Of a DNA stretch of 64,000 nt, positions 2,218-19,337 are shown piece by piece (the first letter of the stretch is position 1; each line of letters opens with the position of its first letter). Origin of the DNA: Chryseobacterium joostei (GTDB lineage: Bacteria > Bacteroidota > Bacteroidia > Flavobacteriales > Weeksellaceae); the NCBI RefSeq assembly GCF_003815775.1, contig NZ_CP033926.1:3596001-3660000 (forward strand), read 5' to 3'. The notes under the pieces were generated by a model. The model made no database searches. It was not told the DNA's origin and was given only the letters and a program-made list of their open reading frames with translations. The translations under genes and the position numbers were made by a program.

Positions 2218-2544
2218 ATGAACTTGTTAAGATGGATATTGGCAATTTATTTCATGGCGTTATCATTGATGCCCTGTGAAGACGTGTCTCATCTTTCATC
2301 AGACTCAGGAGATAAAAAGATTTCATTAAACATCCAGGGAGTTCATTCAACAGAAAAGGGCGATATTTGTTCACCGCTTTGTGCTTGCAGCTGTTGTCAG
2401 ATCACGGTTTCAGCATTTAAGATGGACCCTTTGTTGGAAATTCCGGAGCAGATTCCTGCTTATTTTTCAAAGAAAATCTTATTTCATAAAAACGATTTTG
2501 CCTACCAGGTGTATGATCACGTCTGGCAGCCCCCTAAAATTTAA
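2218..2544 (+). CDS. DUF6660 family small exported Cys-rich protein
   Basis: 108 residues. The hydrophobic N-terminus (about residues 1-19) looks like a signal peptide or anchor and carries an early Cys (LMPCED). The middle has a dense cysteine cluster, CSPLCACSCC, a plausible metal site, and the protein ends WQPPKI. Length, cysteine cluster and position ahead of a CusA/CzcA gene fit DUF6660, a Bacteroidota family commonly next to heavy-metal efflux pumps. The role is unproven; a periplasmic metal-binding accessory is a reasonable inference. A palindromic operator candidate lies between its stop and the pump gene, so the pump may have an extra control point. The end resembles those of the small proteins at 13207 and 15460. 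Confidence 0.75.
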   Translation: MNLLRWILAIYFMALSLMPCEDVSHLSSDSGDKKISLNIQGVHSTEKGDICSPLCACSCCQITVSAFKMDPLLEIPEQIPAYFSKKILFHKNDFAYQVYDHVWQPPKI

Positions 2545-2591: not shown

Positions 2592-2606
2592 TGCAATACT
2601 ATTGCA
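2592..2606 (+). promoter_or_regulatory. Candidate Fur-family operator (7-1-7 inverted repeat) before the RND pump
   Basis: TGCAATACTATTGCA is a perfect 7-1-7 inverted repeat, the geometry of Fur/PerR/Zur boxes, 74 bp ahead of the pump start codon. A near copy with the same flank (GAAAnTTTGCAATA) lies at 10704-10718 before the P-type ATPase gene, directly after the Fur-family gene at 10292. Binding is inferred from this match. Confidence 0.6.
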
Positions 2607-2680
2607 GAGGTTTTCAGGATATTTTTGCTGCAGTATTACGCTGTACGCAATGTATTTTCAATAAAAATTAAATATAAATC

Positions 2681-5600
2681 GTGTTAGATAAAATCATAAA
2701 ATTTAGTATCAAAAACAAGATTGTTATTGGTATTATGACCCTGATACTGATCATCTGGGGAACCTGGAGTGCCACAAAATTGCCCATAGATGCAGTACCG
2801 GATATTACAAACAATCAGGTGCAAATCATTACCGCTTGTCCTACATTGGCTGGGCAGGAAGTAGAGCAGTTAGTCACCTTTCCCATTGAGCAAAGTATCG
2901 CAAATGTTCCGGATATTCAGGAAACAAGAAGTATTTCAAGATTCGGACTTTCTGTAATTACAGTGGTTTTCAAGGAAGATGTAAACATTTACTTTGCCAG
3001 ACAGCTTATTAGTGAGCAATTAAAAAATGCAGTAGAGGAAATTCCGAAAGGAGTGGGTACTCCTGAATTAGCTCCCGTAAGTACAGGTCTTGGAGAAGTA
3101 TATCAGTATATTCTTCATCCGAAAAAAGGAAGCGAAAAGAAATACAATGCCAAGGAATTAAGAACCATGCAGGATTGGATTGTCCGCAGACAGCTTAACG
3201 GAACTCCGGGAGTTGCGGAAATCAACAGTTTTGGGGGAGAATTAAAGCAATATGAAGTAGCTATTGATCCCAATCGTTTAAAGGCGATGGGAACCAGTAT
3301 TACTGAAATATTTACAGCCCTTGAAAAGAATAATCAAAATACAGGTGGAGCTTATATTGATAAAAAGCCCAACGCTTATTTTATCCGTGGAATAGGACTT
3401 GTCACTTCCCTGGAAGACATCAGGAATATTGCCGTTAAAAATGAAACAGGAAGCGTTCCGATTTTTATAAAAGATGTTGCTGATGTTCGCTTAGGAAGCG
3501 CTGTACGGTATGGAGCATTAACCTATGACGGAAAAGTAGATGCCGTGGGTGGAGTAGTGATGATGCTAAAGGGAGCAAACAGCAATGAAGTTGTTGGTAA
3601 TATCAAGGCGAAGATTCCTACCATTCAGAAATCGCTTCCGGATGATGTTGTAATAGAGCCGTTTTTAGATAGAACGGATTTAGTTGACAGGGCTATTAGT
3701 ACCGTTCAGAAAAATCTGATTGAGGGGGCGTTGATCGTTATCTTCGTTCTTGTTGTTTTTCTTGGAAACCTTAGAGCAGGGCTTATTGTTGCCTCTGCCA
3801 TTCCGCTTTCCTTATTATTTGCATTGGGAATGATGAATGTCTTCGGAGTGAGTGCCAATCTGATGAGCCTTGGGGCAATAGACTTCGGGTTGATTGTGGA
3901 CGGAGCTGTGATTATCGTAGAAGCAACCTTGCACCATCTGGGACTAAGGAAATCAATGAGGACTTTAACACAGTCTGAAATGGACGAAGAAGTTTTCTTG
4001 TCTGCATCAAAGATTAGAAGCAGTGCAGCATTCGGGGAAATCATCATCCTGATTGTATATATTCCGATCCTTACCTTAGCAGGTGTAGAAGGGAAAATGT
4101 TCACACCAATGGCAAAAACAGTAGGATTTGCAATTCTTGGAGCTTTGATCCTGTCATTAACCTACATCCCGATGATGAGTGCCTTGTTCTTATCCAAAAA
4201 AATATCACACAAGGAAACTTTTTCAGATAAAATGATGAATCGTCTTCAGAAAATTTATCAGCCATTATTGCAGAAAGCAATCAAAGTAAAATATATTGTT
4301 GTTTCAGCAACAGTAGCGGTTTTTGTAATCTCAGCATTTACCTTTAAAAATATGGGTGGTGAGTTTATACCACAATTGCAGGAGGGAGATTTTGCATTTC
4401 ACTGTATTTTACCACAGGGAAGTTCCTTGAGCCAAAGTATAGAAACCTCCATGCAGGCCTCCAGAATCATCAAGCAATTTGATGAGGTGAAAATGGTAGT
4501 AGGGAAAACAGGATCTGCTGAGGTGCCTACAGACCCGATGCCGCCAGAAGCAACCGATATGATTGTTGTACTAAAACCACAAAGCGAATGGAAAACTAAA
4601 AAATCCTACAACGAATTGGCAGATGAAATCAGTGAAAAACTGGAAACAATTCCTGGGGTATTCTTCGAGAAAAACCAGCCTATTCAGATGCGTTTTAATG
4701 AACTGATGACAGGGATCAGACAGGATGTTGCAGTGAAAATCTTCGGGGAAAACCTAGATTCATTGGCCGTGTATGCTGATAAAGTTGGAAAGATCATTCA
4801 GACTGTAGATGGGGCTACGGCTCCTCAGATTGAAAGAGTAAGCGGTCTTCCGCAGATCAATGTGCAGTATGACAGAACAAGAATTGCTAATTACGGATTA
4901 AATATAGAAGATGTCAACAATGCGGTAAGTACTGCTTTTGCAGGAAAAGCTGCGGGACAGGTTTTTGAAAATGAAAGACGTTTTGATCTGGTAGTACGTT
5001 TGGACAGTCTTCACAGAACAGATATTTCAGATGTGAATAACCTGATGATTACCTCAGGTACAGGAGCACAGATTCCATTGTCGCAGGTTGCCAATGTGAG
5101 CTATAAGCTTGGTCCTGCCCAAATCAGTCGTGAACAGGGAAAACGTAGAATTGTAATCGGATTCAATGTAAAAGGTAGAGATGTGGAAAGTGTAGTAAAG
5201 GACATTCAGGCAAAACTGGATAAGGTAAAATTACCATCCGGATACTACTTTACCTATGGCGGGCAGTTTGAGAATCTACAGGAAGCAAGCAAACGTCTGA
5301 TGATTGCTGTTCCAATATCACTGCTTCTTATTTTTATGCTATTGTATTTTACATTCCGTTCATTCAAGCAGGCTGCATTAATTTTTACAGCTATTCCCAT
5401 GAGTGCCATCGGAGGTATTTTTGCCTTGATTATAAGAGATATGCCATTCAGTATCAGTGCCGGAATCGGATTTATTGCTCTCTTTGGAGTAGCGGTTCTT
5501 AACGGAATCGTATTGATAGGAACCTTTAATCAATTGGAAAAAGATGGCGAGACAGATATTTTAAAACGTGTTTTTGAAGGAACAAAAACAAGATTGAGAC

Positions 5601-7042
5601 CCGTTTTGATGACGGCCACTGTAGCATCACTGGGATTCTTACCCATGGCGATTTCTACAGGAGCGGGTGCGGAAGTACAAAAACCTTTGGCAACAGTAGT
5701 TATTGGAGGATTGGTATCGGCAACATTCCTTACATTATTCGTTCTACCCATGCTGTACATTATTTTTAATACAAAGATTTTGAAAAGAAAAAATAACCAG
5801 ACTGGATCATTTACAATCATTCTTGTTTTAGGACTAATGATGATGGGACATACCTTTAAAGCTCAAACCCGACCCATATCCGTGGAAGAGGCTGTGCAAA
5901 TGGCGATGAATAATAATTTAACGCTACAGTCTAAGGACTTAAGCATAAAATCTGCAGAAGCTTTAAGACCTACGGTAAAGGAACTTCCCAAATTAAGCTT
6001 TGATGCTCAGCTGGGCCAATATAACAGCCCAAAATTCGACCAGTCTTTTGCTATTTCACAAAGCATTCCTTTTCCCACATTGTTTAAGGCAAGAAAGGAG
6101 CTCATTAATGAAAATATTAAGAGTAAGCAGATTGATAAAGAAGTTACAGCCAACGAGCTTGTTAAAGATGTTCGGACCTATTATTACCAGATTGAATATC
6201 TTCAGTATAATAAAGAAAAGCTGACCAGTCTGGCTGGTTTTTATGAAGAATTTATCAGAATTGCAACAGTAAGATTTAAAGCTGGTGACATCAAAAAGAT
6301 CGAAATCAATACAGCAGAAACCCAAAAGGGAGAAATAGACCTTTTACTGAGACAAAATGAAGTATTTCTGAATAATGCCTATAAAAATTTAAAAACACTC
6401 CTGAATACTTCAGAAAACCTGGAAGTCCCATTCAAAACAGATTATGAACCTTTAAAGGCAGAAAATGTATTGGATAGTGCGGTGGTAGCCAATAACCCTA
6501 CAGTAAAGGCTTTTTATCATGAAATGGAAATTGCGGAGAAGAATAAAAAGGTAGAAAAGGCCCTCGGTTTACCGGATTTCAGCCTGGGATATACAAACCA
6601 ATCATTAATAGGATTCCATACCATAAACGGACAAGAAAATTTCTATGATTCCGGGAAGCGTTTTCAATCAGCAACGGTAGGAGTGGCAATACCTTTGACA
6701 TTTGGTGCTACAAAGGCAAGAATGCAGGCTTTAGAATATGATAAACAGGTGGCAGAAACTAACGCGAGAATGCAGAAAAAACAACTTTCTGCCCAGTTGG
6801 AAAATGCATTTAATCAATATCAGCAGGATACGCAGCAGTATGATTACTATACCAATCAGGCGCTGCCTAATGCCGAGAAAATTGTAAAGGCAGCTCAATT
6901 AGGATATAAAACAGGGGAAATTTCCTATGTAGAATATCTTTTTGCCTTACAGACAGCTACCAATATTCAATTAAAATATCTGGAATCCATCCAGCAGGTG
7001 AATCAATCTGTAGTTATCATTAATTCAATCATTAACAAATAA
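2681..7042 (+). CDS. CusA/CzcA family heavy-metal RND pump fused to a TolC-type outer-membrane factor
   Basis: 1453 residues with a GTG start. Residues 1 to about 1035 are a complete HME-RND proton/metal antiporter of the inner membrane: TM1 near 12-32, docking and porter domains, TM2-6 at about 345-505, a second porter half and TM8-12 at about 870-1035. The TM4 proton-relay residues match CzcA (D401 in AIDFG, D407 in IVDGA, E414 in IVEA), which favours divalent cation export. After a Lys/Arg-rich stretch comes a signal-peptide-like hydrophobic segment ending FKAQ (cut expected near 1061/1062), then a TolC/CzcC-like helical outer-membrane channel to the end. Such fusions are known in Bacteroidota; processing into two chains is inference. 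The adaptor gene follows directly. Substrate (Zn, Co, Cd, Ni or Cu) cannot be fixed from sequence. Confidence 0.93.
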   Translation: MLDKIIKFSIKNKIVIGIMTLILIIWGTWSATKLPIDAVPDITNNQVQIITACPTLAGQEVEQLVTFPIEQSIANVPDIQETRSISRFGLSVITVVFKEDVNIYFARQLISEQLKNAVEEIPKGVGTPELAPVSTGLGEVYQYILHPKKGSEKKYNAKELRTMQDWIVRRQLNGTPGVAEINSFGGELKQYEVAIDPNRLKAMGTSITEIFTALEKNNQNTGGAYIDKKPNAYFIRGIGLVTSLEDIRNIAVKNETGSVPIFIKDVADVRLGSAVRYGALTYDGKVDAVGGVVMMLKGANSNEVVGNIKAKIPTIQKSLPDDVVIEPFLDRTDLVDRAISTVQKNLIEGALIVIFVLVVFLGNLRAGLIVASAIPLSLLFALGMMNVFGVSANLMSLGAIDFGLIVDGAVIIVEATLHHLGLRKSMRTLTQSEMDEEVFLSASKIRSSAAFGEIIILIVYIPILTLAGVEGKMFTPMAKTVGFAILGALILSLTYIPMMSALFLSKKISHKETFSDKMMNRLQKIYQPLLQKAIKVKYIVVSATVAVFVISAFTFKNMGGEFIPQLQEGDFAFHCILPQGSSLSQSIETSMQASRIIKQFDEVKMVVGKTGSAEVPTDPMPPEATDMIVVLKPQSEWKTKKSYNELADEISEKLETIPGVFFEKNQPIQMRFNELMTGIRQDVAVKIFGENLDSLAVYADKVGKIIQTVDGATAPQIERVSGLPQINVQYDRTRIANYGLNIEDVNNAVSTAFAGKAAGQVFENERRFDLVVRLDSLHRTDISDVNNLMITSGTGAQIPLSQVANVSYKLGPAQISREQGKRRIVIGFNVKGRDVESVVKDIQAKLDKVKLPSGYYFTYGGQFENLQEASKRLMIAVPISLLLIFMLLYFTFRSFKQAALIFTAIPMSAIGGIFALIIRDMPFSISAGIGFIALFGVAVLNGIVLIGTFNQLEKDGETDILKRVFEGTKTRLRPVLMTATVASLGFLPMAISTGAGAEVQKPLATVVIGGLVSATFLTLFVLPMLYIIFNTKILKRKNNQTGSFTIILVLGLMMMGHTFKAQTRPISVEEAVQMAMNNNLTLQSKDLSIKSAEALRPTVKELPKLSFDAQLGQYNSPKFDQSFAISQSIPFPTLFKARKELINENIKSKQIDKEVTANELVKDVRTYYYQIEYLQYNKEKLTSLAGFYEEFIRIATVRFKAGDIKKIEINTAETQKGEIDLLLRQNEVFLNNAYKNLKTLLNTSENLEVPFKTDYEPLKAENVLDSAVVANNPTVKAFYHEMEIAEKNKKVEKALGLPDFSLGYTNQSLIGFHTINGQENFYDSGKRFQSATVGVAIPLTFGATKARMQALEYDKQVAETNARMQKKQLSAQLENAFNQYQQDTQQYDYYTNQALPNAEKIVKAAQLGYKTGEISYVEYLFALQTATNIQLKYLESIQQVNQSVVIINSIINK

Positions 7043-7118
7043 TATGAAGTCGCTATTAACAGAAAATTCACCAATGAAGATGATGGCATACGATTTTAGA
7101 AAAAATAAATATTCACAT

Positions 7119-8348
7119 ATGAAACTCAAATATAATATCATATCTCTTGTATTAATCTCTCTGGTGGTAATAAGCTGTGGAAAAAAAGAATCTACAGAAG
7201 AAAAAGCACCGGAAAAAACAGAACAGAAAGAGAAAGCACATGAAGAAGTACCTGAAACTATTGCCTCATTAACAGAAGAGCAGATGAAGTCGGTAGGAGT
7301 GGATTTGGGATCGGTAGAAATGAAAGAGCTTACCTCAACCATCAAAGCAAATGGCCTTTTGAGTGTGCCGAACAGTAATAAGGCAACCATTACTTCTCTA
7401 TATGGCGGAATTATTAAAACAATAAATATCCAGGTTGGAAGTATTGTGAAAAAAGGACAGGTTATCGCAACCATTGCCAATCCTGAATATATACAGCTTC
7501 AGGAAGATTATCTGACTACCAATAGCAGGATTGCCTATGCTGAACAGGAATTCAGAAGACAAAGGGAGCTTTTCGATAATGATGCAGGCGCAAAAAAGAA
7601 TCTTCAAAGTGCAGATGCAGAATTGAAGACCTTAAGAACCAAAAGAGCCTCCCTTTTGAAACAGCTTCAAATGATGGGAATAAACCCGGGAAGTGTAAAC
7701 AATGGTAACATGAAGTCAGGTTTGGTAATCACAGCTCCGATCAGTGGAACAATTAGTAGTATTACAGCACAGATAGGAAGTTATGTAGATATTTCATCCC
7801 CTGTTGCTACAGTAATTGATAATGGTTCCATCCATCTGGATCTTCAGGTATTTGAAAAAGATCTTCCCAAAATGAGGGTAGGGCAGATTGTTCATTTTAA
7901 ACTGACCAATAATCCCGAAACAGAATATGATGCAAAGATTTACAGCATTGGATCTTCCTTTGAAAACGAAAGCAAGACCATTTCAATGCACTGCGAAGTG
8001 ATAGGAAATAAATCAGGGCTGATTGACGGGATGAACATTACAGGACTGGTAAGCCTTGATAAAAGTACAACGCCTGCAGTTCCTACCGAAGCCATCGTAG
8101 AAGCAGACGGAAAATACTATGTCTTTGTACAAACTGATAAAAAGGTAGAAGAAGAGCATGACGAAAAAGGAAAACCACATCCGAAGACCCTGAATTTTGA
8201 AAAAATGGAAGTAGTAAAAGGAACTTCAGACATGGGATACACCGCCATTACATCTATTGGACAAATTCCGGATAATGCCAAAATTGTTGTAAAAGGAGCC
8301 TTTTTTGTAAATGCCAAGCTCGTGAATTCAGGAGAACATGAACATTAA
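7119..8348 (+). CDS. RND efflux periplasmic adaptor (CzcB/CusB-like lipoprotein)
   Basis: Membrane-fusion protein bridging the RND pump and the TolC part of the preceding gene. With the start at 7119 the protein has 409 residues and a lipoprotein signal ending VVISC; the frame stays open upstream to an ATG at 7044, but that extension would bury the signal. A Lys/Glu-rich linker follows, then a biotinyl-lipoyl hybrid motif (VQVGSIVKKGQVIATI), a helical hairpin around 130-190, the second lipoyl half (ITAPISGTISSI), beta-barrel domains and a His-rich insert EEEHDEKGKPHPK near the C-terminus, ending EHEH. The His residues may bind metal. It starts 76 bp after the pump stop, and the upstream leader resembles that of the RidA gene at 33699. 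Confidence 0.9.
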   Translation: MKLKYNIISLVLISLVVISCGKKESTEEKAPEKTEQKEKAHEEVPETIASLTEEQMKSVGVDLGSVEMKELTSTIKANGLLSVPNSNKATITSLYGGIIKTINIQVGSIVKKGQVIATIANPEYIQLQEDYLTTNSRIAYAEQEFRRQRELFDNDAGAKKNLQSADAELKTLRTKRASLLKQLQMMGINPGSVNNGNMKSGLVITAPISGTISSITAQIGSYVDISSPVATVIDNGSIHLDLQVFEKDLPKMRVGQIVHFKLTNNPETEYDAKIYSIGSSFENESKTISMHCEVIGNKSGLIDGMNITGLVSLDKSTTPAVPTEAIVEADGKYYVFVQTDKKVEEEHDEKGKPHPKTLNFEKMEVVKGTSDMGYTAITSIGQIPDNAKIVVKGAFFVNAKLVNSGEHEH

Positions 8349-8481
8349 TGAAAGTCTTTAAAACCAATGAAATGTCGATTTTTATACTTAAATTAGAGCT
8401 GTTTACGGAATAGTTTTTATTGAAGTAAAACGACTGAGGGAAAGCAAAGTGTATCTTATAAAATTTAATACTTGCCCAACT

Positions 8482-9360
8482 ATGTTATTAAACAAAAAAA
8501 TATCAGTCTGGTATTTCATCCGTGAAATAAAATCTCAAATTCTGTTTATCGGAATATTCGCCGTGGTTATTGGACTTTTGGACATGCTGCCGTGGTTTCA
8601 AAAAATTTCACTTCCACTGAACATTCCTGCACTTTTAGGAACTGCGGTTTCATTATTGCTGGCGTTCAGAACCTCACAGTCCTATGAACGCTGGTGGGAA
8701 GCCAGAACGGTGTGGGGAGCCATTGTGAATGATTCCAGAACATTGGTGAGATTGGTCAATCAGTTTTTACCTGAGGGAGATAAAAATATCAGAGCCATTG
8801 CAGAAAGACAGATCATCTGGACTTATGCATTGGGAGAATCTTTGAGAAAGCTGCCTTTTTCTGATAAAGTTCAAAAATATTTGGATGAAAACAAGATCAG
8901 TGCGGTTAATATTCCTAATGCACTTCTAGATGCTCATTCCAAACAGCTGAGGGAAATTGCTGCTTCAAAAGGGCTTACAGATTTCCAGCAGATGCAACTG
9001 AATGATATGGTTACAAGGCTTTGTGACAGTATGGGAAAATGTGAAAGATTAAAAAACACCGTTTTTCCGAGGTCTTACAGTGTTTTAGTGCATATCCTGA
9101 TCTATGTGTTTGCCGCTATATTGCCATTTGGACTGGATGATTCACAGCTGACGGTAGAGATTATGATTACTTTTCTGGTTCCAATAGTGTTTATTACGAT
9201 AGAAAAAACATCTATCATTATGCAGGATCCATTCGAAAATGGCCCGGTGGATACTCCTGTGACTTCTCTTGCGCAAACTATAGAAATCAATATCAGACAA
9301 ATGATTGGGGAGCAAAATGTTCCTTTAAAAAAAGAAAATTCATCCTATTATGAAATGTAA
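8482..9360 (+). CDS. Bestrophin-like anion channel family protein
   Basis: 292 residues. I place the start at ATG 8482 (MLLNKKISVW); an upstream in-frame GTG at 8449 would add 11 unlikely residues. Four hydrophobic segments are visible (about 25-45, 50-70, 205-225, 230-250). The signature FRTSQSYERWWEAR after TM2, and PFENGPVDTPV before the C-terminus, mark the bacterial bestrophin family (UPF0187/YneE-like), pentameric inner-membrane channels that in characterised members conduct anions or, in KpBest, cations. It lies 133 bp after the adaptor gene and 14 bp before the CDF exporter gene, so it may be transcribed with the metal genes. A role in charge balance during metal export is speculation. 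Confidence 0.85.
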   Translation: MLLNKKISVWYFIREIKSQILFIGIFAVVIGLLDMLPWFQKISLPLNIPALLGTAVSLLLAFRTSQSYERWWEARTVWGAIVNDSRTLVRLVNQFLPEGDKNIRAIAERQIIWTYALGESLRKLPFSDKVQKYLDENKISAVNIPNALLDAHSKQLREIAASKGLTDFQQMQLNDMVTRLCDSMGKCERLKNTVFPRSYSVLVHILIYVFAAILPFGLDDSQLTVEIMITFLVPIVFITIEKTSIIMQDPFENGPVDTPVTSLAQTIEINIRQMIGEQNVPLKKENSSYYEM

Positions 9361-9374
9361 TTAATCCAGCAGAT

Positions 9375-10274
9375 ATGGAAACCAAAACACAAACACAACT
9401 TCCCTCTGCAGGGAGCAGACATAAAAAAAAACTCCTGATTGTACTATGCCTTAGTGGCACCTATCTCATTGCTGAGGTGATAGGAGGGCTTGTTACCAAT
9501 AGCCTTGCCTTATTAGCCGATGCAGCACATATGCTGACGGATGTTGTAGGGTTATTGTTGGCATTTATTGCCATAAAAATAGGTGAGAAAAAAGCAGACC
9601 CTTCCAGAACCTACGGATATTACCGTACAGAAATACTGGCAGCAGTTATTAATGCAGTGGTGCTGTTAGGAATTTCAATATATGTTCTCTTTGAAGCATA
9701 TCGACGTTTTCAGGATCCACCGGAAGTACAGAGTAAATCTATGCTGATTGTGGCAGGGATAGGGCTGGTAGTAAACATTGTAGGAATGATGATTCTAAGA
9801 AAAGATTCAGAGGGAAGTCTTAATATGAAGGGAGCCTATTTTGAAGTTCTTTCAGATATGTTAACTTCTGTAGGAGTAATGATTGCCGGAGTTATTATGT
9901 GGACAACAGGCTGGTATTATGCCGATCCGTTGATTTCTGCAGCCATTGGCCTTTTAATATTTCCAAGGACGTGGAGACTCTTGAAAGAAGCAATCAACGT
10001 ATTATTAGAAGGAACTCCAAATGATGTAGACATCCATGAGCTGCGCAAATCGCTGGAGCAAACACAGGGGGTAAAAAACGTTCATGATCTTCATGTATGG
10101 TCTTTAACATCAAGTGTGAATGCAATGAGTGCCCACATTGTGAAAGAAGAAACATATCCACAGAATCAATTATTAAAAACATTAACAGAAAAAACGGTGG
10201 AGAACTTTAAAATAAGTCATACCACTTTTCAGATAGAAGAAGAGGGTTACGAAGAAAATGAAGTCCATCTGTAA
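9375..10274 (+). CDS. CDF family cation (zinc) efflux transporter, CzcD/ZitB-like
   Basis: 299 residues. Inner-membrane cation diffusion facilitator that exports cytoplasmic Zn2+ or related ions against protons. Six hydrophobic helices lie in residues 18-200. The TM2 metal site reads ADAAHMLTDV (HxxxD) and the TM5 site SDMLTSVGV, matching the zinc-type CDF active site. The C-terminal domain after about 215 holds DVDIHELRKSLE and VHDLHVWSL, where His residues form the regulatory cytoplasmic metal sites of the family. The first 18 residues lack the His-rich stretch some homologues carry. It is followed 17 bp later by the Fur-family regulator and then the zinc/cadmium P-type ATPase, so the operon likely defends against excess zinc. 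Confidence 0.93.
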   Translation: METKTQTQLPSAGSRHKKKLLIVLCLSGTYLIAEVIGGLVTNSLALLADAAHMLTDVVGLLLAFIAIKIGEKKADPSRTYGYYRTEILAAVINAVVLLGISIYVLFEAYRRFQDPPEVQSKSMLIVAGIGLVVNIVGMMILRKDSEGSLNMKGAYFEVLSDMLTSVGVMIAGVIMWTTGWYYADPLISAAIGLLIFPRTWRLLKEAINVLLEGTPNDVDIHELRKSLEQTQGVKNVHDLHVWSLTSSVNAMSAHIVKEETYPQNQLLKTLTEKTVENFKISHTTFQIEEEGYEENEVHL

Positions 10275-10291
10275 ATTTTAAATTGTTGAAA

Positions 10292-10711
10292 ATGAAAAAA
10301 GATATAGAAAATAAGCTCATTGATAAAAATACCAAACCCACCAGTATGAGGATTCTGGTATACGATTTTCTAAGCTCACAGGACGCAGCAATGTCTCTCT
10401 CTGAAATAGAAAATCACTTTGATAATGCAGACCGAATTACCATTTACAGAACATTAAAAACCTTTGAAGAAAAAGGAATTGTTCACAGCATACAGGAAAA
10501 TACAACCACAAAATACAAGTTATGCGATGACGATTGTGATGAGAAAACCCATAAGGACTGGCATCTTCATTTCTATTGCAAAATATGTAAACAAACGACA
10601 TGTAAAGAGGATATTTCCTTTCCCGAAAATATTCAGACCAATTTCAGGATTGATGAAATAAGGCTTTTTGCTAAAGGAATATGTGAAAACTGTCTTGAAA
10701 GTTTGCAATAG
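10292..10711 (+). CDS. Fur family transcriptional regulator (Zur-like)
   Basis: 139 residues from the ATG at 10292 (a TTG at 10283 is in frame but less likely). The N-terminal winged helix is visible in TSMRILVYDFLSS, SLSEIENHF and DRITIYRTLKTFEEKGIVH. The dimerisation domain carries DDDCDEKTHKDWHLHFYC, then CKIC and a terminal CENC, a four-Cys structural zinc site as in Fur/Zur proteins. Fur members usually repress metal uptake; here the gene sits between two efflux genes, and a 7-1-7 palindrome overlapping its own stop codon (10704-10718) precedes the P-ATPase, with a twin before the RND pump. Control of efflux, by repression or activation, is therefore inferred. Subfamily (Zur, Fur or PerR) cannot be settled by eye. 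Confidence 0.88.
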   Translation: MKKDIENKLIDKNTKPTSMRILVYDFLSSQDAAMSLSEIENHFDNADRITIYRTLKTFEEKGIVHSIQENTTTKYKLCDDDCDEKTHKDWHLHFYCKICKQTTCKEDISFPENIQTNFRIDEIRLFAKGICENCLESLQ

Positions 10712-10718
10712 CATTGCA
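10704..10718 (+). promoter_or_regulatory. Candidate Fur-family operator before zntA-like gene
   Basis: TGCAATAGCATTGCA, a 7-1-7 inverted repeat with one mismatch, preceded by the same GAAAnTT flank as the site at 2592-2606. It overlaps the stop codon of the Fur-family gene. A -7 element TAAATTTG follows at 10732-10739, so a bound regulator would cover the -33 region. Confidence 0.6.
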
Positions 10719-10731
10719 TCCGTCTCACCAT

Positions 10732-10739
10732 TAAATTTG
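10732..10739 (+). promoter_or_regulatory. -7 promoter element of the P-type ATPase gene
   Basis: TAAATTTG matches TAnnTTTG 16 bp before the ATG at 10756. A possible -33 TTG lies inside the upstream palindrome (10714-10716), at 15 bp spacing, slightly shorter than usual. Confidence 0.5.
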
Positions 10740-10755
10740 TATAAAAATATCAGTT

Positions 10756-12738
10756 ATGGAAAAGTGCTGTAGTACAACCCCAGAAAAAATAGAACCAAAA
10801 GGACACAATCATAATCATTCAGAAGGAGATGGACATGACCATGACGGGCATGATCATTCCCATGATTCCGGAGATCAGACGATCTTTCAGATGTTTCTGC
10901 CGGCCATCATATCCTTTGTGATCCTATTATTAGGAATTGCTTTTGACAATTATATACAACCGGCATGGTTTACAGGCTGGGTAAGGTTAGTATGGTTTCT
11001 GGCAGCCTATATTCCTGTGGGATTTCCGGTATTAAAAGATGCCTATAAAAGTATTATTAAAGGAGATGTATTCTCAGAATTCTTTCTGATGAGCATTGCT
11101 ACTATTGGAGCTTTTGCCATTGCAGAATATCCTGAGGGAGTTGCAGTAATGCTTTTTTATGCCGTAGGAGAAGTTTTTCAATCTATGGCGGTAACCAGAG
11201 CAAAAGGAAATATAAAAGCCTTACTGGATCAGCGTCCCGATGAGGTAACGATTATGGAAAGTAATCAGCCTAAAACCATTAAAGCCAAAGAAACCAAAGT
11301 AGGGAATATCATCCAGTTGAAGCCCGGAGAAAAACTGGCATTGGACGGGGAATTACTTTCGGATTCGGCATCATTCAATACAGCTGCTTTAACAGGAGAA
11401 AGTAAACCGGACACCAAAAATAAAGGTGAAGTTGTATTGGCAGGGATGATCAATATGAACAGTATAGCCCTTGTTAAGGTAACTACGGCTTATGAAGACA
11501 GTAAATTAAGTAAAATCTTAGAACTGGTTCAGAATGCAACTGCTCAAAAGGCTCCTACTGAGTTGTTCATCAGAAAATTTGCTAAGGTTTATACGCCGAT
11601 TGTAGTTTTTCTTGCCATAGGAATTTGTTTCCTGCCCTATTTCATTGTCAATGATTATCAGTTCAGAGACTGGTTGTACAGAGCATTAATTTTCCTTGTA
11701 ATTTCTTGTCCTTGTGCATTGGTAATTTCCATTCCGTTGGGATATTTCGGAGGAATCGGAGCTGCCAGCAGAAACGGAATTTTATTTAAAGGAAGTAACT
11801 TCCTGGACAGCATTGCTGAGATTCAAAATGTTGTGATGGATAAAACGGGAACGATGACTGAAGGAGTCTTCAAAGTTCAGAAAGTAAGCATTATCTCCGA
11901 ATTTAATAAAGATGAAATCCTTCAATTAGTCAATGTGCTGGAAAGCAAAAGCACACACCCTGTGGCAACCGCCATTCACAACTATGTAGGAGATATTAAT
12001 TATTCCATTCCGCTGGAAAATGTAGAGGAAATTGCAGGACATGGATTAAAAGCTGCAGTTAACGGAAAAGAACTTTTGGTAGGAAACTTCAAGTTAATGG
12101 ATAAATTCAATATCCAATACGATATTAACCATGCTAATATTGTGTACACCCTTATCGCAGTAGCTTACGATAAAAGATTTGCAGGGTATATCACTATTGC
12201 CGACAGTATAAAAGAAGATGCAAAAGAAACAGTTGATAATCTTCACAAAATGGGCGTAAAAGCCACAATGTTGAGTGGCGATAAAGGAACCGTTGTAAAA
12301 TATGTTGCAGACCAACTTGGTATCGACAATGCTTTTGGAGATCTTTTACCGGAAGATAAAGTAAATAAGGTAAAAGAGATTAAGGCAAAAAATCAAACAG
12401 TAGCTTTTGTAGGAGACGGTGTTAATGATGCACCCGTAGTTGCTTTAAGTGATGTAGGAATCGCTATGGGTGGTTTAGGAAGTGACGCCACCATTGAAAC
12501 GGCAGATGTAGTTATTCAGGATGATAAGCCGAGCAAGATTCCAATGGCTATCAATATTGGAAAGCAAACGAAAAAGATCGTTTGGCAGAATATTATTCTG
12601 GCCTTTGCTGTAAAAGCAGTGGTTTTAGTACTTGGAGCCGGAGGTCTTGCAACCATGTGGGAAGCTGTATTTGCAGATGTTGGAGTAGCGCTGTTAGCTA
12701 TTTTAAATGCGGTAAGAATTCAGAGAATGAAGTTCTAG
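10756..12738 (+). CDS. zntA: Heavy-metal translocating P-type ATPase (ZntA/CadA-like)
   Basis: 660 residues. Inner-membrane P1B ATPase that pumps Zn2+/Cd2+/Pb2+ out of the cytoplasm. There is no ferredoxin-like HMA domain; instead the first 40 residues carry a CC pair and a His/Asp-rich run (HNHNHSEGDGHDHDGHDHSH), likely a soft metal-binding tail. Paired TM helices around 45-90 and 105-150 precede the actuator loop (TGES), the CPC ion-binding motif at C318-P-C320, the phosphorylation site DKTGTMTEG at D362, the HP motif in STHPVA, and the hinge GDGVNDAPV. The CPC type with a C-terminal Asp region (ADVGVALLAILNA) points to zinc/cadmium/lead rather than copper. It is the last gene of the efflux island and ends before a clear terminator. 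Confidence 0.93.
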   Translation: MEKCCSTTPEKIEPKGHNHNHSEGDGHDHDGHDHSHDSGDQTIFQMFLPAIISFVILLLGIAFDNYIQPAWFTGWVRLVWFLAAYIPVGFPVLKDAYKSIIKGDVFSEFFLMSIATIGAFAIAEYPEGVAVMLFYAVGEVFQSMAVTRAKGNIKALLDQRPDEVTIMESNQPKTIKAKETKVGNIIQLKPGEKLALDGELLSDSASFNTAALTGESKPDTKNKGEVVLAGMINMNSIALVKVTTAYEDSKLSKILELVQNATAQKAPTELFIRKFAKVYTPIVVFLAIGICFLPYFIVNDYQFRDWLYRALIFLVISCPCALVISIPLGYFGGIGAASRNGILFKGSNFLDSIAEIQNVVMDKTGTMTEGVFKVQKVSIISEFNKDEILQLVNVLESKSTHPVATAIHNYVGDINYSIPLENVEEIAGHGLKAAVNGKELLVGNFKLMDKFNIQYDINHANIVYTLIAVAYDKRFAGYITIADSIKEDAKETVDNLHKMGVKATMLSGDKGTVVKYVADQLGIDNAFGDLLPEDKVNKVKEIKAKNQTVAFVGDGVNDAPVVALSDVGIAMGGLGSDATIETADVVIQDDKPSKIPMAINIGKQTKKIVWQNIILAFAVKAVVLVLGAGGLATMWEAVFADVGVALLAILNAVRIQRMKF

Positions 12739-18978: not shown

Positions 18979-19069
18979 ATCATCTTATATTTAAAATCAA
19001 ATTTCAAAGTCATTTATTTATGATATTGTAAATCATTTTGTTATTTAGGTCTATATATTAATAATTGTT

Positions 19070-19077
19070 TATCTTTG
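19070..19077 (+). promoter_or_regulatory. -7 element of the cobalamin riboswitch transcript
   Basis: TATCTTTG matches TAnnTTTG and lies just ahead of the aptamer, placing the transcript start near 19084. No good TTG -33 box at normal distance. Confidence 0.5.
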
Positions 19078-19083
19078 CCGAAA

Positions 19084-19241
19084 TTTGGTGAGCCCTAAAA
19101 AGCTCTTAAAAGGGAATCCGGTGAAAATCCGGAACAGACCCGCTGCTGTAAGCTCCACACCAAAGTTTTTGAAGAATATATCCACTGCTTTTTTAATGGG
19201 AAGGATTTCAAAAATGGAGTAAGTCAGAAGACCTGCCAGAA
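19084..19241 (+). ncRNA. Cobalamin riboswitch (aptamer)
   Basis: The sequence has the hallmarks of the AdoCbl/B12 aptamer in order: AAAAGGGAATCCGGTGAAAA, TCCGGAACAGACCCGCTGCTG, a variable arm, and the B12 box AGTCAGAAGACCTGCC near 19221-19236. It precedes a TonB-dependent receptor gene, the standard target in Bacteroidota, where bound cobalamin turns expression off. A downstream hairpin at 19338-19374 buries the receptor start codon and is a candidate expression platform. Confidence 0.92.
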
Positions 19242-19337
19242 AATATAAACGTTTGACGCTTTCGTGGAATAAAGCTTAGGACAACAATGATTTTGTGCAG
19301 TAACAGCTGTGCCTTATCGTTGCTTTCTTATATCTAT

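Follow-up and report, generated by a model that had tools for sequence, protein, structure and literature searches.

The 64,000-nucleotide stretch of the Chryseobacterium joostei genome analyzed here (the window, from a two-contig genome of 4.89 Mb) carries a gene of the Fur family at 10292..10711, located between a czc-type efflux operon and a zntA-type ATPase gene that are preceded by nearly the same palindrome. What does a member of a family best known for the control of metal uptake do beside genes for metal export? Comparison across genomes showed a linkage of this protein, the palindromic operator, and efflux genes, together with class-wide conservation, a separate Zur-like gene in the genome, a fixed distance between operator and promoter box, and a Zur-like set of ligands in the protein. 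Judging from these sequence comparisons, the 10292 protein and its operator very probably constitute a dedicated, Zur-derived regulator of metal efflux. Our favored reading in full, to which we give a probability of about 0.5, is that of a dedicated metal-excess sensor acting as a metal-loaded activator from position -33 of the czcA operon and of zntA.

Paired putative operators and a predicted promoter box at a fixed distance

Operator 1, TGCAATACTATTGCA (2592..2606, + strand), is a perfect 7-1-7 inverted repeat in front of the czc operon, and operator 2, TGCAATAGCATTGCA (10704..10718, + strand), which pairs at 6 of 7 positions, precedes zntA, so that the two flank the Fur-family gene (Pfam FUR, 30.5 bits; cut-off, 23.1). 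An earlier note on this DNA had already described both palindromes, the flank GAAAnTT common to them (GAAACTT immediately 5' of operator 1 and GAAAGTT at operator 2), and the overlap of the second with the stop codon of the regulator gene (10709-10711), all of which are real. In relatives, operator 1 is kept before czcA or DUF6660-czcA, and operator 2 is found in the same position. New relative to the earlier note is the motif TAnnTTTG located exactly 13 nucleotides (nt) 3' of both palindromes (predicted -7 promoter boxes TATTTTTG at 2620..2627 and TAAATTTG at 10732..10739, both on the + strand). This motif is given as the -7 element consensus of the Bacteroidota primary sigma factor in parts of two papers (PMC6847099 and PMC7366714). 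By the numbering used for Flavobacterium johnsoniae (T at -12), the palindrome would span about -40 to -26, with its center at -33.

Within the window, the exact sequence TGCAATANNATTGCA was confined to the two operators (3 strand matches), with an expectation of 0.01 and none of 100 shuffles reaching 3, while allowing up to 3 mismatches gave no excess in the window (53 matches versus 42 expected). Genome-wide, the exact motif occurs at three places, namely, both operators and a site inside an NRAMP/MntH-like frame (named by eye). This third palindrome (G000:C1:4653239-4653253; L003) has no TAnnTTTG within 40 nt and is probably due to chance. Six other genomic sites match with one mismatch (L004-L009), and all of them likewise lack TAnnTTTG within that distance. 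Two near-matches (L157 and L244) sit away from pumps. In its relaxed form, TGCAA-N5-TTGCA-N12/13-TAnnTTTG, the module has just two matches in the entire 4.89 Mb, one at each operator, versus 0 in the reversed control, so that the frequent random occurrence that the earlier note had named as a ground for refutation was not seen.

The spacing and the linkage were followed first within the family (197 genomes). In 67 of these genomes, the Fur protein had a close orthologue (E value of at most 1e-50, counted from the match listing), and 56 of the 197 contained the strict module TTTGCAATANNATTGCA-N10-16-TAnnTTTG (reversed control, 0). The two coincide: the module was found in 54/67 genomes with a close orthologue versus 2/130 without one (Fisher test, 3e-33, uncorrected for kinship). 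One of the latter two (G118) retains a fur remnant before zntA, and in the other (G099), the site precedes DUF6660-czcA. Although spacings from 10 to 16 nt were permitted, all the strict-module matches listed had 13 nt except one with 12. In the order sample (296 genomes), TTGCAATNNNATTGCA-N10-16-TAnnTTTG was found in 33 genomes, of which 3 are not family members. Two of the extrafamily matches (L113 and L114) are DUF6660-czcA operons with a related Fur gene downstream, whose products share more identity with the window protein than with Zur (46 versus 32% and 57 versus 34%, respectively). A perfect module with 13-nt spacing was also seen before a transglutaminase-like gene (identified by eye), away from recognized pumps (L068, G169:C2:1503169).

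Loci were also chosen by protein similarity, taking the best 80 of 588 relatives. Most came from Chryseobacterium, which provided the nearest titled relatives (regulator up to 99% identical), but Epilithonimonas, Kaistella, Apibacter, Vaginella, Sphingobacterium, Parapedobacter, Salegentibacter, Paenimyroides, and Flavobacterium were represented as well. The module was present in 75 of the 80 loci, with spacings, counted on both strands, of 13 nt (92 sites), 12 nt (13 sites), and 24 nt (5 sites). Several Sphingobacterium genomes carry 76 to 79% identical copies, which suggests horizontal transfer of the whole efflux cassette. The site alignment comprised 142 sites, 114 of them unique and 47 left after thinning (40 at 13 nt and 7 at 12 nt). 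The conserved columns in the 40 thinned 13-nt sites were the flank AAnTT, the palindrome, and the -7 box; the last two belonged to the selection and the flank did not, and at many zntA-side sites, the flank is also the end of the fur frame. The last position of the -7 box was G in 39 of these 40 sites, a set preselected for TAnnTTT[GA]. By comparison, the conserved unit is TGCAAT-N3-ATTGCA and, at greater depth, TGCAA-N5-TTGCA. The box geometry of the earlier note is corrected accordingly: the palindrome is a 6-3-6, close to the box of the genome's own Zur locus rather than to the classical Fur box of 7-1-7 type. The reading as a plain Fur/PerR box (7-1-7) was rejected on the basis of this conservation and of the PerR and Fur equivalog scores of the protein, which were far under the cut-off.

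At the level of the class (395 genomes), 148 genomes matched the protein alignment at an E value of 1e-20 or better. The matches form two tiers, a top one mostly beside pumps and spread over 13 families and a lower one largely without pumps, and class-wide, the module recurs next to Fur-protein relatives with identities as low as about 33%. A scan by DNA only (TGCAA-N5-TTGCA-N5-20-TAnnTTTG, protein not used) of the same genomes found matches in 145 of the 395, with 11 reversed-control matches counted among those listed. The 150 matches listed included 29 with a spacing of 7 to 9 nt, 31 with 12 or 13 nt, and 43 with 17 or 18 nt; the distances from box to -7 element thus peak in half-turn steps. 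Among the sites at 12/13 nt outside the window, 21 of the 29 unique ones listed were followed within 1.5 kb by czcA, zntA, czcB, or cdf (22/31 rows before removal of two sites doubly counted in overlapping stretches of one genome). The same genes were found within 1.5 kb downstream of none of the first 20 of the 43 listed sites at 17/18 nt. One of the 17/18 sites lies before a Zur-like gene and one near cobW, and others precede TonB-type or secreted proteins (these by eye). As for the 8 unique 12/13-nt sites without such a pump gene, two (L381 and L400) adjoin a Fur gene whose product resembles the window protein more than it does Zur, and one (L378) precedes a His-rich adaptor-like protein (by eye).

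These data bear on the possibility that some unrelated regulator binds the palindromes or that they arose by accident. Binding by the 10292 protein is predicted from homology, one strict module stands before the transglutaminase-like gene, and 8/29 of the listed class-wide 12/13-nt sites lack a pump gene in the 1.5 kb that follow; but the expectation of 0.01 in the window and the class-wide conservation with an adjacent Fur gene make such an explanation very improbable. The connection proposed earlier between the 10292 protein and both efflux units through a common palindrome, which the earlier note took to require activation or unusual sensing, is instead supported by the co-occurrence of protein and operator, both in the family and across the class.

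A Zur-like protein in a clade of its own

Residues H65, C78, C82, H91, H93, and C104 of the regulator form a Zur-like ligand set, and C96, C99, C131, and C134 would make up a Cys4 structural site (roles assigned by homology). The best PDB sequence match was Zur of Escherichia coli (4mtd; E value, 9e-13), and the structural model has the Fur fold, with a winged helix and a dimerization domain; absence from the fold-search list was not used to exclude any family. Pfam gives the FUR domain only, with no MerR helix-turn-helix domain in the protein. The score against the NCBIfam Zur equivalog NF008646 was 33.2 bits (cut-off, 167), a weak test, given that no score for the Zur of this genome served as a control, and the best score against the PerR equivalog was 34.6 bits (cut-off, 180).

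For the tree, 180 proteins of at least 110 amino acids were thinned by similarity to 97, and the root was placed at the midpoint, with no outgroup. The window protein fell in a clade of 72 with a support of 0.99, while the other 25, including the Zur-like protein of its own genome, were outside. Three of the 72 clade loci came from a set (L075-L092) picked partly with pattern matches in view; the rest, the window excepted, were fetched by protein. A recognized pump neighbor was present in 57/72 clade loci, which is a lower bound because some of the clade stretches are only 3 kb long, versus 1/25 outside (L333, a P-type ATPase match with 25% identity). Across the 72 clade and 25 outside proteins, H65, C78, H91, H93, C96, C99, C104, C131, and C134 were invariant, and C82 was present in 72/72 and 23/25, respectively. 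No linkage of the regulator to zinc uptake genes was found (linkage only was examined); its neighbors are czcA, czcB, cdf, and zntA.

The two groups also differ in the position of the box. Among the thinned loci, the -7 box was sought up to 25 nt behind each palindrome, and the clade boxes with a TAnnTTTG in this range had it at 12 (17 boxes) or 13 nt (37 boxes) in 54/54 cases, versus 0/11 outside the clade (1, 6, 7, 9, 9, 14, 18, 18, 19, 20, and 20 nt; Fisher test, 1e-12). With the looser TAnnTTTR, 55/57 clade boxes and 2/15 outside boxes were at 12/13 nt. Flavobacteriaceae variants such as TGCACTTCCATTGCA were found close behind the gene. The classes at 12 to 13 and 17 to 18 nt are about 5 bp apart, i.e., half a helical turn.

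The genome contains three Fur-family genes: one Cys-poor, one Zur-like beside CobW, and the one at 10292. Hence, the idea of a single Zur serving everything was set aside. The Zur-like gene (L073, 731382) lies near a TonB receptor, a MerC-like gene, and a CobW GTPase (named by eye) and, from these neighbors, looks like the canonical Zur. The boxes of its locus are TGCAACAAAGTTGCG, TGCAACAAAGTTACG, and TGCAACTAGGTTACG. Its promoter region has boxes at 6741-6755 and 6781-6795 of L073, 40 bp apart, of which one is followed after 13 nt by a degenerate -7 box and the other lies about at the implied start point. Could this protein read the efflux boxes as well, leaving some other job to the 10292 gene? 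The Zur-locus boxes TGCAACAAAGTTRCG are the same as the efflux box but for the innermost base pair and one end. However, the exact TGCAAC-N3-GTTRCG was found at only 3 places in the genome, all within 2 kb of the zur-like gene, the efflux box follows the efflux-clade protein, and the spacing differs between the groups. We therefore consider this explanation improbable.

Metal-loaded activator or metal-free repressor

Efflux should rise with metal; therefore, the regulator would activate in its loaded form or else repress in its empty form. In the mechanism that we favor, the 10292 gene product would sense excess metal and would derive from Zur-side members of the Fur family. By homology, it would bind both boxes, as a dimer on TGCAAT-N3-ATTGCA centered at about -33, with the -7 box of each unit (czcA operon and zntA) a fixed 12 to 13 nt further 3'. 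Its metal is probably zinc and perhaps cadmium or cobalt, to judge from the ligands and the pumps (the ATPase has the CPC motif and a DxG). Since the regulatory ligands are common with Zur, metal should still favor DNA binding, as in the Zur relatives, and the loaded dimer, occupying the place where the -33 element would be, may recruit RNA polymerase and turn the pumps on; we are less sure of these last two steps. Because fur lies in the czc operon, the regulator would raise its own level.

Given a dedicated efflux regulator, activation seems to us somewhat more probable than repression. We lean to it on the grounds of the strict spacing, the retention of the regulatory ligands, and the lack of a -33 element, and the known Zur activators of exporters, in Streptomyces coelicolor and Xanthomonas campestris, were counted in its favor. 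The -33 TTG usually lies 17 to 23 nt before the -7 box, and by arithmetic there is no TTG at this distance inside the operator. With a spacing of 17 to 18 nt, the TTG of the 3' half-site would fall 19 to 20 nt from the -7 box, i.e., at the -33 TTG position, which is not so at 12 to 13 nt. A MerR-like promoter with a long spacer (TTTG 26 nt from the -7 box) had been another candidate and was rejected: the czc-side sites of mobile cassettes have AATG there, and the TTG signal is weak in the 136 boxes of the genome.

A broader proposal can be drawn from the class comparison, tentatively and at somewhat less than even odds. A Fur-family branch across Bacteroidia may be a dedicated metal-excess activator that has kept Zur's ligands and nearly Zur's box, its output having been inverted only by shifting one box to a fixed 12 to 13 nt, approximately half a helical turn off the 7- to 9-nt and 17- to 18-nt positions, so that the loaded dimer would replace the -33 contact of the primary sigma factor.

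Several observations weigh against activation or weaken the case for a dedicated efflux system. A dimer at -33 would cover the contact of sigma region 4, a usual position for a repressor. The lack of a -33 TTG means little, because this signal is weak in the genome (23/136 boxes at 17 to 21 nt) and much less evident in F. johnsoniae, according to part of PMC6847099. Two of the 56 module-bearing family genomes keep the zntA frame and a perfect site despite a broken fur, which is reduced to its 3' end in one (G118, L081) and frameshifted in the other (G126, L080); a broken fur with zntA and operator intact fits the loss of a repressor better. As regards the spacing, 2/15 outside boxes sit at 13 nt when TAnnTTTR is accepted, and so does the box of the genome's own Zur locus with respect to its degenerate -7 box, TATATTTA. 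The exact box was found in only 53/72 clade loci, 48 of them with a -7 box, and some of the others are degenerate; 15/72 clade loci had no recognized pump in the fetched stretch; and the third extrafamily match in the order sample (L115, 14 nt) was without a pump. Finally, kinship among the genomes inflates every count. The two genomes with broken fur genes are useful natural tests of the sign of regulation.

The opposite sign would come from the same regulator and operator: a metal-free dimer over -33 would repress czcA and zntA and be released by excess metal, as in the ArsR/SmtB repressors. We regard this as a serious competitor, although its chances are clearly short of even. The site is centered over the sigma contact region, the -7 boxes are good matches to the consensus (39/40 with the terminal G in the preselected set mentioned above), the position of fur inside the operon permits negative autoregulation, the two genomes with broken fur and intact zntA fit it, and apo-Zur over the -35 region in Corynebacterium glutamicum is a precedent (part of PMC6103462). 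However, repression by the empty dimer leaves unexplained, by itself, why 54/54 clade boxes lie at 12/13 nt versus 11 outside boxes anywhere from 1 to 20 nt, and it requires a reversal of the rule that metal promotes binding although the regulatory ligands have been kept. For these reasons, the metal-loaded activator remains our preferred reading.

Gene content and comparison with known systems

All the genes of the locus are on the + strand. The first encodes a small Cys-rich exported protein of the DUF6660 family (2218..2544; Pfam PF20365), located 5' of czcA. DUF6660 is often found before czcA (other examples are L137, L138, and L341), and in a number of other genomes, it is directly behind the operator, inside the regulated unit. 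Behind operator 1, a CzcA-type RND pump and an outer-membrane factor domain (2681..7042; Pfam ACR_tran and OEP; NCBIfam TIGR00914, 1212 bits; cut-off, 701) are fused in one reading frame of 1,453 amino acids. The adaptor of CzcB type (7122..8348, start taken at 7122 in a frame open from 7044; Pfam HlyD_D23 and TIGR01730), a bestrophin-family channel (8479..9360, start taken at 8479 in a frame open from 8449; Pfam PF25539), and a CDF (ZitB-like) metal exporter (9375..10274; Pfam Cation_efflux and TIGR01297) follow, up to the regulator gene. Beyond operator 2 is the ZntA-type P1B ATPase (10756..12738), with a His-rich N terminus, the CPC motif, and the DxG (TIGR01512 cadmium family, 482.9 bits; cut-off, 313.5). 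Elsewhere in the window, a cobalamin riboswitch was detected at 19069-19254 on the + strand (96.3 bits; gathering score, 31.5).

Taken together, the comparison suggests that the Fur family has a branch devoted to export, found in 13 families of the class sample among the top-tier matches. The precise operator permits prediction of the regulon from sequence. The branch also offers a clean natural comparison: the two sister sensors share their regulatory ligands and very nearly their DNA box, but have opposite duties and differ in where that box lies. In addition, it provides, for the unusual Bacteroidota sigma factor, a testable kind of regulated promoter, which may also be of use for metal-inducible expression in this phylum.

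Zinc surplus is usually assigned to sensors of the MerR or ArsR type and shortage to Zur, according to part of PMC6103462. We found no description of a dedicated Fur-family efflux branch with a fixed-position operator, or of a Fur-family efflux regulator in Bacteroidota, in the open-access literature, most subscription papers being outside this coverage. The review PMC6103462 gave no hits for Bacteroid or Flavobacter, and parts of PMC11077047 and PMC9976891 contain nothing on an efflux regulator of Bacteroidota. That Zur can also act on exporters is known; what appears to be new, as the comparison suggests, is a separate branch of the family devoted to efflux, with its operator in a fixed position.

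The nearest known proteins are E. coli Zur (4mtd) and the Zur-like protein of the same genome, which share with the window regulator the Fur fold, the Cys4 structural site, and Cys/His regulatory ligands. Unlike Zur, the regulator belongs to a separate clade, lies beside efflux and not uptake-type genes, and has its box at a fixed 12 to 13 nt from the -7 box. The efflux operator and the Zur-locus box are both palindromic with the same GCAA/TTGC core; the innermost pair, however, is T-A in the efflux box of the Chryseobacterium lineage and C-G in the Zur box, although deeper clade members can have C-G. In Riemerella anatipestifer, also a member of the Flavobacteriales, the role in zinc excess falls to ZntR, annotated as MerR in part of PMC11960050, that is, a protein of a family unrelated to Fur. 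Activation or derepression of exporters by Zur itself is described in parts of PMC6103462 and PMC5472717 for S. coelicolor, X. campestris, and C. glutamicum. In S. coelicolor, the same Zur that represses uptake induces the exporter zitB from a box 8 nt 5' of the -35 hexamer, with oligomeric spreading (part of PMC5472717). Here too, a Fur-family protein stands at an exporter, but it is a separate paralogue with a single box predicted to be centered at about -33, not 5' of a -35 element. In C. glutamicum, apo-Zur represses the exporters zrf and zra from a site over -35, and the same Zur controls uptake (part of PMC6103462). The likeness lies in the Fur-family protein, in the CDF and P-type ATPase exporters, and in the site over the -35 or -33 region, whereas the C. 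glutamicum site is a 10-1-10 direct repeat and the one described here is a 6-3-6 inverted repeat that would be read by a dedicated paralogue.

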